Notes under the pieces: model-generated
The model's input: the letters and a program-made list of their open reading frames with translations, nothing else
Told to the model about the DNA's origin: nothing
The model's database searches: none
In this document: positions 13,917-60,802 of the stretch, in pieces
How positions within the stretch are numbered: position 1 is the first letter of the stretch
Layout: every line of letters begins with the position of its first letter
DNA from: Hysterangium stoloniferum
Lineage: Eukaryota > Basidiomycota > Agaricomycetes > Hysterangiales > Hysterangiaceae
Direction of reading: 5' to 3'
Assembly: GCA_015178975.1 (NCBI GenBank)
Contig: WHVD01000285.1
Span: 1-64,000 of the forward strand
Length of the DNA stretch: 64,000 nucleotides
Made by a program: the position numbers and the translations under genes

Positions 13917-15543
13917 CTACGCAAAAAGCCCCTTGAACGCCTTCTTCTCTTTTTCGCGGGCCGCCTTCTTGCGCTGTTTCACCTTCTCCAATTCAGCCAA
14001 GATGATAGCATCTCCTTTGACAAGATGACTGGCTTGTGTAAGGTCAGCCTGGGCTTCGTCGTCAGATTTCATTCCGCCGTAAGCGAGTGCTCGGCGATAT
14101 AGTGCTTTTGCTGTTGTGCGAAATGTAAGATGAAAACTCAACGGCTCTGTAATAAAATAATTACCCTTATCGGCGTCTGAAAGTTGGAGTCGATCTAAGG
14201 CCCTGGTTGTGTTTTGCACCGCTAACGTGTAGTTAGCAGGGGATGGCACCTTCAATGCAGCAAGGGCAGAGTTCAACAACAGTGGCGCCAACAGGGTTTT
14301 GTATGATTCCTCCAATTCAGGAGATGAACCATCCGGCATGACAGGATGAACATCCAGGTAGCGAATGGACTCTGTGAACAAACTAATGAGTAATGTCGTA
14401 AATGAGGCATCACTAAATACATACTCTGGTACTTAGACAAAGCCTCGACAGCCTTCCCTTCCTTGAAAAGTTTGTTTCCAATTTCTCTGATTTCTTTAGC
14501 AATAGAAAGAGCAATTTCAGGATTCTCAGTGTTGGAATCATCATCTTCGGGGAAATCCTCATACTTGTCGCCATCAGAGGACGACGCGCTTTCACTAAGG
14601 AATGGATCTGTAGGTTCCAAGACGCCAGACTTGGCAATTACCACAGGCTGTGTTGGTACATCACCTTCTAATGTAGGAAGGCGCTCAATTTGACGGACTA
14701 TAGATAAAATGAGATACGATACGACTAGCAAACGGAATATCTCACCAATTGATTTGCCTCTGATTACTTCGCCGAAGACGACATGCTTTCCATCAAGGTG
14801 TGGCGTAGGCGCAGCGGTAATAAAAAATTGACTAGAATGGATAAGTAGGTTTTTGAAGGGGAAGGCAATCCGCTCACCTGCCATTGGTGTCCTTTCCTGC
14901 GTTGGCCTGGAGAATATATGAATAAGTTGACACTCTTCGAAGAGAAGATCATACCATAGAGAGCTACATTGTCCGTCAGTACTATAACTTTTTACACGAG
15001 ATCAAGAAAAAAGCCCGACCAAAAATGGTTTGGTATGTTTCACTGTGAAGTCTTCATCGGCGAATTTTTCTCCGTAGATAGATTCTCCGCCTAGGAAATT
15101 ATCAGCTTGAGAAAATGACTGCCTTGACTAGGAAGCTAACCGGTTCCTATAACCAGAGTCATTAACATGCCTCTAGAAGAGCAGATGAGCAATGTATACC
15201 ATTTCCCTTTGTGAAATCCCCCCCTTGAATCATGAAGCTGTTTGGATGCAATAAAAAAGTGGGTACGGATTAGAATATAATATGCACGGACCCTTTAATT
15301 ACTCTATGGAATCCACTACCTTCATAGTGAAGAGGCTTCTCCGACTGTCCGACCCCCTTTTCACCAGTGCATAATGCGCCTGACACGTCGTTAGACAAAT
15401 ATAACGCGTTTTACCAGTGACTCACGAAAATTTTCTGCAGTTTTTGGAACAATATCTGAGTATAAACTAAACGCGATCCTTCCAATGGCTTGACCGCCTA
15501 TGGTTATATCAAAAAACGCAATTGCACGATCTGGGGTTCCCAT
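13917..15543 (-). CDS. Cyclophilin-40 type peptidyl-prolyl isomerase with TPR domain
   Basis: This is a cytosolic Hsp90 co-chaperone (CYP40; yeast Cpr6/Cpr7 group). It starts [17 protein letters not shown] at 15543. The cyclophilin domain has [84 protein letters not shown] and [19 protein letters not shown]. The linker is acidic ([13 protein letters not shown]). TPR helices follow ([40 protein letters not shown]), ending [12 protein letters not shown] and TAG at 13917. Exons read by eye include 15426-15543, 15292-15379, 15210-15247, 15141-15146, 15020-15090, 14955-14963, 14878-14906 and 14746-14831, then larger ones. The two smallest are 6 and 9 nt, and the frame and conserved motifs need both. 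All introns are about 40-75 nt with GT...AG ends. Length and domain order match the family. Confidence 0.93.
14955..14963 (-). other. 9-nt micro-exon of the cyclophilin-40 gene
   Basis: On the minus strand the sequence is AATGTAG, then CTCTCTATG, then GTATGATC. The nine bases code for Leu-Ser-Met and complete the invariant cyclophilin motif KPFL-LSM-ANAG. Direct joining of the flanking exons would drop three conserved residues. Confidence 0.85.
15141..15146 (-). other. 6-nt micro-exon of the cyclophilin-40 gene
   Basis: On the minus strand the sequence is GGTTATAG, then GAACCG, then GTTAGC. With the upstream exon ending AAATG and the downstream exon starting GCGGAG, the six bases restore N-G-T-G-G-E-S, a fixed cyclophilin motif. 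The other AG acceptor upstream (CTTCTAG) would shift the frame. Confidence 0.8.
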
Positions 15544-60436: not shown

Positions 60437-60730
60437 TATGGAGATTATTCCGCTGTTAAACCGTTTAGTTCAGCTGAGACCGCAACCCTTTATAGTCCAC
60501 AATAACCATTAGAATTTTAACTCTGTCACGCCTGTCACCATGACTGTTTGCCGCCTAAATGGTTAGGTCGCGAGTGCTTGAAATCATGAAACCTATTCAA
60601 CATGGGAAAAATGGTATAAAATATAATGCGCGCATATATTGGACAGATAAAACCAGCGCAGTCGTTCATGTATTATTGTGTCAATAATCGTTATGATTGT
60701 TAGAAAACATGAGTAATGTAGAAAATGAAT

Positions 60731-60802
60731 AGCCAGACTGGGGATTGAACCCAGGATCTTTCGATTACATAACGAAGGTGTTAACCACTACACCATCTGA
60801 CC
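60731..60802 (-). tRNA. tRNA, probably Thr(UGU)-like, unusual anticodon loop
   Basis: Seventy-two nt on the minus strand fold as a cloverleaf. The acceptor is GGTCAGA/TCTGGCT (with two G-U pairs). The D arm GTGT-AGTGGTTA-ACAC carries the A box, and the T arm is CTGGG-TTCAATC-CCCAG with the B box GGTTCAATCCC. The anticodon stem is TTCG/CGAA, closed by a T-T mismatch, leaving TATGTAA as the seven-base loop. That reads anticodon TGT (Thr) but puts A at position 33 where U is nearly invariant. It may therefore be a pseudogene or a variant; the identity is uncertain. Confidence 0.65.

Follow-up and report, generated by a model that had tools for sequence, protein, structure and literature searches.

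Are exons of only six and nine nucleotides genuine parts of a basidiomycete gene, or do they merely appear so when conserved protein motifs are pieced together from genomic DNA? This question is raised by a cyclophilin-40 (CYP40) gene of the truffle-like fungus Hysterangium stoloniferum, which lies within the 64,000-nt stretch of DNA analysed here (referred to below as the window). The gene is intact, runs from 15543 to 13917 on the minus strand, and is made up of 11 exons (118, 88, 38, 6, 71, 9, 29, 86, 273, 207 and 194 nt, in order) and 10 introns (46, 54, 53, 50, 56, 48, 46, 48, 53 and 54 nt, in order; GT-AG throughout). Its joined coding sequence of 1119 nt has no internal stops and codes for a protein of 372 amino acids. 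A first-pass annotation of this DNA had placed a 6-nt and a 9-nt exon in the interval 14955..15146; these coordinates proved to be exact, with one of the two exons at either end of the interval, and the additional exon of only 29 nt that had been described is exon 7, at 14906-14878. The parts of the gene on which the argument depends are listed here.

15426..15543, minus strand: CYP40 exon 1, 118 nt, with the start codon at 15543; identified by CDS reading and spliced alignment.
15292..15379, minus strand: CYP40 exon 2, 88 nt; CDS reading and spliced alignment.
15200..15237, minus strand: CYP40 exon 3, 38 nt, with a 3' end, AATG, that represents Asn and the first base of Gly; the spliced alignment agrees.
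15147..15199, minus strand: CYP40 intron 3, 53 nt, gtatac..ttatag, 5' of the 6-nt exon; weak acceptor (9th percentile).
15141..15146, minus strand: CYP40 exon 4, the 6-nt micro-exon GAACCG; CDS reading, spliced alignment and shuffles; absent from the public record P0001.
15091..15140, minus strand: CYP40 intron 4, 50 nt, gttagc..cctag; the public record translates its final 15 nt (15105-15091).
15020..15090, minus strand: CYP40 exon 5, 71 nt; CDS reading and spliced alignment.
14964..15019, minus strand: CYP40 intron 5, 56 nt, gtcggg..atgtag; the weakest donor of the gene, and a CTGAC branch-point-like site.
14955..14963, minus strand: CYP40 exon 6, the 9-nt micro-exon CTCTCTATG; CDS reading, spliced alignment and shuffles; present in P0001.
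14907..14954, minus strand: CYP40 intron 6, 48 nt, gtatga..ctccag.
14878..14906, minus strand: CYP40 exon 7, 29 nt, coding for ANAGKDTNG and part of Ser; the spliced alignment agrees.
14746..14831, minus strand: CYP40 exon 8, 86 nt; CDS reading and spliced alignment.
14425..14697, minus strand: CYP40 exon 9, 273 nt; CDS reading and spliced alignment.
14165..14371, minus strand: CYP40 exon 10, 207 nt, C-terminal (probable TPR) region; CDS reading and spliced alignment.
13917..14110, minus strand: CYP40 exon 11, 194 nt including the stop codon at 13919-13917, C-terminal (probable TPR) region; identical in the spliced alignment up to the last codon.

Internal coding exons of at most 30 nt with a GT donor and an AG acceptor were counted as micro-exons, a definition that takes in the 6-, 9- and 29-nt exons of CYP40, the first two of which also lie below the limit of 15 nt used for small micro-exons. 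Exon 4 (acceptor ..ttatag, donor gttagc) is in phase 1 on both sides and contributes the Gly-Thr-Gly part of NGTGGES, and exon 6 (acceptor ..atgtag, donor gtatga) is in phase 0 on both sides and codes for the Leu-Ser-Met of LLSMANAG, so that the joined translation contains both NGTGGES and KPFLLSMANAG. Skipping of exon 4 or exon 6 keeps the frame and gives N-GGES or KPFL-ANAG, respectively, which bears out the earlier claim that both micro-exons are needed for these motifs, while retention of any one of introns 3 to 6 leads to an early stop. A direct join of exon 3 to exon 5 would amount to the removal of a single intron of 109 nt, and a join of exon 5 to exon 7 to the removal of one of 113 nt; the longest intron seen in 16 other cyclophilin stretches of the genome, using an automatic alignment that allowed 130 nt, is 82 nt.

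The product possesses a cyclophilin-type PPIase domain (PF00160; residues 11-173, 165.2 bits, cut-off 21.7), together with TPR_2 and TPR_1 matches of 18.9 and 17.4 bits that lie below their cut-offs of 27 and 27.8. The solved cyclophilin 40 structure 1ihg, presumably that of the bovine protein, aligns to residues 4-372 of the query (E 2.5e-97), a full-length match that supports the first-pass identification of the gene as CYP40. Many records from basidiomycetes, under the names 40 kDa cyclophilin, cyp40, cpr6 or isomerase D, match 93-100% of the query, and some of the protein matches listed are other cyclophilins, which cover 41-49% of it.

Both the 6-nt and the 9-nt exon are more than chance matches. 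In a spliced alignment that allowed exons of any size, both were chosen at intron penalties of 3, 5, 7 and 9; the profile comprised 119 related proteins and excluded both P0001 and the window's own translation as rows, although its columns follow the window's own protein, which makes the alignment mildly circular. The real alignment score of 138.7 was reached by none of 1500 dinucleotide shuffles of the sequence that the flanking exons enclose (mean 111.7, maximum 129.6). When both introns had to be at least 40 nt long, a 6-nt exon coding for exactly Gly-Thr arose in 4 of 20,000 shuffles and one coding for Gly-Thr or Gly-Ser in 22 of 20,000; with introns of at least 30 nt, the count for Gly-Thr was 8 in 20,000. 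Under the same 40-nt minimum, a 9-nt exon coding for Leu-Ser-Met was never found (0/20,000), and the looser pattern [LMI]S[MI] was found four times in 20,000.

The introns that flank the micro-exons are of ordinary length and have signals that are mostly below the median. To score them, we used a splice-site matrix built from 54 introns, taken from 10 of the 16 other cyclophilin stretches and from six of the ten CYP40 introns; L010, L012, L016, L023 and L024 were left out by choice, and L018 as dubious. All 54 training donors outscore that of intron 5 (GTCGGG), introns 3, 4 and 6 have donors at the 20th, 33rd and 24th percentile, and no donor beside a micro-exon reaches the training-set median. 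Among the acceptors, that of intron 3 (1.7 bits) ranks at the 9th percentile of the training set and that of intron 5 at the 24th, and those of intron 4 (7.7 bits) and intron 6 are good, at the 74th and 78th percentile. Branch-point-like sites were identified in intron 3 (TTAAT), intron 4 (CTGAT) and intron 5 (CTGAC), and the same simple pattern finds none in intron 6. Thus, while the four flanking introns all have the GT and AG ends that the first-pass annotation had called clean, that description is too strong for two of their sites, the intron 5 donor and the intron 3 acceptor.

The public CYP40 protein of H. stoloniferum (P0001, 375 aa), which is the best database match, differs from this reading at the 6-nt exon. 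A model without exon 4 in which exon 5 begins at 15105 reproduces P0001 letter for letter: the 6-nt exon is omitted and 15 nt from the end of intron 4 (15105-15091) are translated instead, so that the junction reads AATG-CTGATAATTTCCTAG-GCGGAG, where the micro-exon model has AATG-GAACCG-GCGGAG. The 9-nt exon, which the micro-exon model joins as TTTTTG-CTCTCTATG-GCCAAC, is present in P0001, since this record contains LSM. At the 6-nt exon, the Gly-Thr of NGTGGES is replaced by five residues that are found in none of the other 119 records listed. It is very probable that the deposited protein misstates one of its best-conserved loops.

The records of relatives were compared at the same site. These were the best 120 CYP40 records listed, ranked by likeness to the query and divided, by their source column, into genome-derived or EukProt records and environmental ones. 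Hysterangium belongs to the order Hysterangiales in the subclass Phallomycetidae, which is represented among the 120 records listed by P0001, P0003, P0004 and P0091. Between N and GGES, Ramaria has NG-I-GGES, Gautieria NG-SP-GGES and Sphaerobolus N-GGES; in all, four of four Phallomycetidae records are odd at this site, versus two (P0086 and P0119) of the 82 remaining genome-derived or EukProt records (Fisher 7e-6, within the 120 listed). A stricter pattern flagged 12 of the 120 listed records, of which P0023, P0034, P0056, P0067 and P0096 have a one-residue substitution at full length and were treated as right in our counts. Also treated as right were P0099, which the pattern used for the counts had flagged but which is intact (NDGTGGKS), and P0105, in which the break lies a few residues before the site. 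LSM is present in all four of the listed Phallomycetidae records, and both motifs are of full length in all 34 environmental records among the 120 (using a pattern of Gly-Thr/Ser/Arg and LS(M/S)). Since the four listed records are all odd between the same two residues, we infer from the protein records that the 6-nt exon is probably common to Phallomycetidae and has been missed differently each time. The first-pass expectation that this gene is probably misannotated wherever it occurs is therefore half supported: it fits the 6-nt exon, which is missing from P0001 and at whose site all four listed Phallomycetidae records are odd, but not the 9-nt exon, the residues of which are found in all four.

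A second protein search, using the cyclophilin domain alone, returned P0091, which was already known, as the only named Phallomycetidae record among the 120 listed; 105 of the 119 new records listed have both GTG and SMAN, 13 lack GTG (all having GRG or GSG) and one lacks SMAN. Viral contigs were also searched for the DNA of a fungal relative, and no relative was found there. In the CYP40 record of Panaeolus cyanescens (P0050), an extra NLVQ lies between LSM and ANAG, at the junction that follows the 9-nt exon. This insertion is perhaps due to a misplaced acceptor, and suggests that the intron after the 9-nt exon may also be present in Agaricales.

Several other explanations for this locus have to be weighed against these data. 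The public model, which does without the 6-nt exon and uses an acceptor farther upstream, has the standing of the deposited annotation, and CTCAAG, the acceptor on which it relies (3.2 bits, 20th percentile), outscores the intron 3 acceptor by a small margin, though it lies below the 7.7 bits of the intron 4 acceptor. That it is right is nonetheless very improbable: its five extra codons, which stand in place of Gly-Thr in no other listed record, are the last 15 nt of intron 4 and include the CTGAT branch-point-like site, and the three nearest relatives are each differently odd at the same spot. It is also hard to see the gene as a decaying or mis-assembled copy in which the micro-exons are accidental. 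The weak donor of intron 5 is what such a copy might show, but the frame is complete across 11 exons, the protein is 80% and 82% identical to the Gautieria and Ramaria records over 100% of its length, and a DNA search of the 111-Mb assembly for a CYP40 paralogue or a second haplotype gave a single match, the gene itself; we regard this explanation as close to untenable.

A different possibility is that one or both micro-exons are regulated cassettes, yielding in-frame isoforms without Gly-Thr or Leu-Ser-Met that would perhaps be inactive as isomerases and yet bind partners via the probable TPR region. Both exons are multiples of three with symmetric phases, so that skipping keeps the frame, some of the flanking splice sites are weak, and a regulated fungal micro-exon has been published, in the excerpted report on Xlr2 of Trichoderma virens (PMC11121469). 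However, nothing in our data points directly to regulated skipping, the composite introns of 109 and 113 nt would be unusually long, and the 34 environmental CYP40 records listed, though from other species, have both motifs at full length without exception. We consider regulated skipping unlikely.

The explanation that we favour, with high confidence, is that H. stoloniferum possesses an intact CYP40 gene with introns of 46-56 nt, in which, at two places, neighbouring introns are separated by exons of just 6 and 9 nt, both exons being constitutive. What was observed directly is the anatomy of the DNA, the unbroken frame, the return of the conserved motifs and the error in the public model. Intron definition, the recognition of an intron as a unit, applies to introns of about 50 nt, and exon length then matters less. 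Each short CYP40 intron would be recognised in this manner, and the two introns beside a micro-exon would be removed in turn, one after the other, because a 6-nt exon is unlikely to have room for both sets of factors at once. The earlier statement that exons this small are hard for the spliceosome to define is therefore doubtful for this gene, as all ten of its introns, at 46-56 nt, are in an intron-definition setting. Both micro-exons would accordingly be kept constitutively, an expectation that we hold strongly on the basis of intron lengths, because skipping needs an intron of 109 or 113 nt when the longest found elsewhere is 82 nt. As for how the micro-exons arose, the simplest route would be the gain of an intron near an existing one.

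Exons of this size are not without precedent. Excerpts of published reports describe exons down to 6 bp in the P450 genes (P450ome) of Phanerochaete chrysosporium (PMC1184071), short exons called frequent in basidiomycetes in work on Laccaria bicolor (PMC2897884), Phlebia radiata gene models that include exons of two or three nucleotides (PMC6540522), and very short exons of Ganoderma lingzhi that are hard for Iso-Seq (PMC11590231). A further excerpted report has it that functional micro-exons in filamentous fungi were undescribed before the regulated Xlr2, and that fungal examples are few (PMC11121469); in plants, conserved micro-exons are described as pervasively misannotated (PMC8831610, likewise in excerpt). 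The first-pass view that such exons are rare in fungi is thus doubtful, given that short exons had already been published for basidiomycetes (PMC1184071, PMC2897884, PMC6540522), even though PMC11121469 calls examples few. In basidiomycetes, exons of 6 and 9 nt are not very unusual; micro-exons are known in this group, and CYP40 of H. stoloniferum adds a further case. Among the papers on micro-exons listed, including those retrieved together with cyclophilin, none on a fungal cyclophilin gene was evident from titles and the openings of abstracts.

Other cyclophilin genes of the same genome have internal exons of 13-30 nt, as sized by an automatic aligner without GC donors (L018 was corrected by hand). 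Three cyclophilin paralogues (L019, L020 and L021) have, at the same place, a 13-nt exon coding for FM(I/L)Q plus one base, again by automatic alignment. L022 and L023 are further copies close to L019/L020, of which L022 aligns over part of the domain only and L023 has disrupted motifs (NATDGRS); some of these copies (L022, L023) may be decaying. Within the window, the only Rfam match at gathering thresholds is a tRNA gene at 60730-60802 on the minus strand (51.8 bits).

The cyclophilin-H gene of this genome (L018, G000:C1:70333-71393) has a likely exon that is smaller still.

G000:C1:70686-70688 (L018:887-889): likely 3-nt cyclophilin-H exon AGT, tttcag/AGT/gtgaga, between introns of 60 and 50 nt.

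This exon would split an arginine codon. With it, the protein reads FHRVVKDFM, without gaps relative to the solved cyclophilin H 1mzw (FHRVIKDFM), and without it FHRVKDFM, which is the reading in the public record P0277. An exon of this kind arose by chance in 135 of 20,000 shuffles, or 280 if isoleucine was also allowed; the shuffle test alone is weak, and the DNA of one species is modest evidence next to the stronger evidence of the records. The residues encoded by the 42-nt exon 2 (L018:683-724, G000:C1:70482-70523) are likewise absent from P0277, which has YCALINKYYNFS in their place; judged by eye, this is the translated end of the intron that comes next. A GC-AG intron, gcgagc..aaaag, lies at L018:963-1026 (G000:C1:70762-70825), where it is the second one downstream of the 3-nt exon.

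For cyclophilin-H, the relatives were again the best 120 listed by likeness to the query, which itself held the residue of the 3-nt exon. They were split by source column into genome-derived records and transcript-like or environmental ones; jgi/lgn contigs that are short (965-2513 bases) and carry a full frame free of introns were presumed to be cDNA. Within these 120, the codon of the 3-nt exon is intact in 30 of 30 transcript-like records versus 39 of 90 genome-derived records (Fisher 2.6e-9). The remaining 51 genome-derived records comprise 32 that are exactly one residue short and 19 that differ otherwise, and over alignment positions 4-165 a gap or insertion in at least four genome-derived records occurs solely at 62-63. 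The short records include Auricularia, Hydnum, Serendipita, Sistotremastrum, Sanghuangporus, Lactarius, Suillus, Pleurotus and the dacrymycete Calocera (Dacrymycetes). Arg is kept in 27 of the 32 and changed to Ser in five, a change that follows when an NGT exon inside the AG/R codon is skipped and the next exon starts with T or C. In Pleurotus ostreatus, P0247 and P0281 are identical save for a missing Val, and in Agaricus bisporus, P0296 (var. burnettii) and P0328 (var. bisporus) are distinguished by a single residue close to the start, by Arg->Ser and by the missing Val. As these same-species pairs differ at the codon, the difference lies in how the gene was read and not in the species.

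A 3-nt slip of donor or acceptor, in place of an exon, was rejected for Hysterangium by reading the DNA, and for the five Arg->Ser records by reasoning, as the loss should be in phase 2, where a lost N-G-T triplet cannot have AG at its end or GT at its beginning. Such a slip is possible for the remaining 27 short records. Taking these genes together, we think it likely that the CYP40 exons are part of an under-recognised set of old, constitutive ultra-small mushroom exons. The clearest case would be the AGT exon of cyclophilin-H, extending from Dacrymycetes to Agaricales, the loss of which would cost many published basidiomycete records one residue of FHRVVxxF. We put this no higher because the cyclophilin-H DNA comes from one species only.

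Comparisons that make use of P0001 and the CYP40 records of its relatives would show false changes in a conserved loop. Tiny exons can be spotted at places where errors recur across many public proteins, and a signature consisting of the lack of one residue, in some cases with Arg->Ser, would, if true, reveal such exons from protein databases alone. If DNA confirms the cyclophilin-H case, an old, codon-sized exon has been lost from many published basidiomycete proteomes. They also offer naturally occurring genes for studying how exons of 3-9 nt between introns of about 50 nt are dealt with by the spliceosome.

As a protein, the Hysterangium product resembles the cyclophilin 40 of 1ihg in having a cyclophilin domain and, probably, a C-terminal TPR region, the alignment running through to residue 372 with no gap at either micro-exon; there is nothing notable about it, and it is only the structure of its gene that is unusual. 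The micro-exons reported, in the excerpts available, for P. chrysosporium, L. bicolor and P. radiata are similar in being exons of a few codons between short introns. Those reports treat gene families or whole gene sets, whereas in Hysterangium CYP40 both tiny exons belong to conserved motifs and one is linked to the error of a named record. The plant micro-exons of PMC8831610, as excerpted, are likewise very small, conserved, coding and often lost in annotation, but belong to another kingdom and were studied with RNA-seq. Finally, Xlr2 of T. virens (PMC11121469, in excerpt) offers a fungal micro-exon that was also missed by the original gene model; it acts, however, as a glucose-dependent switch, whereas CYP40 bears no sign of regulation.
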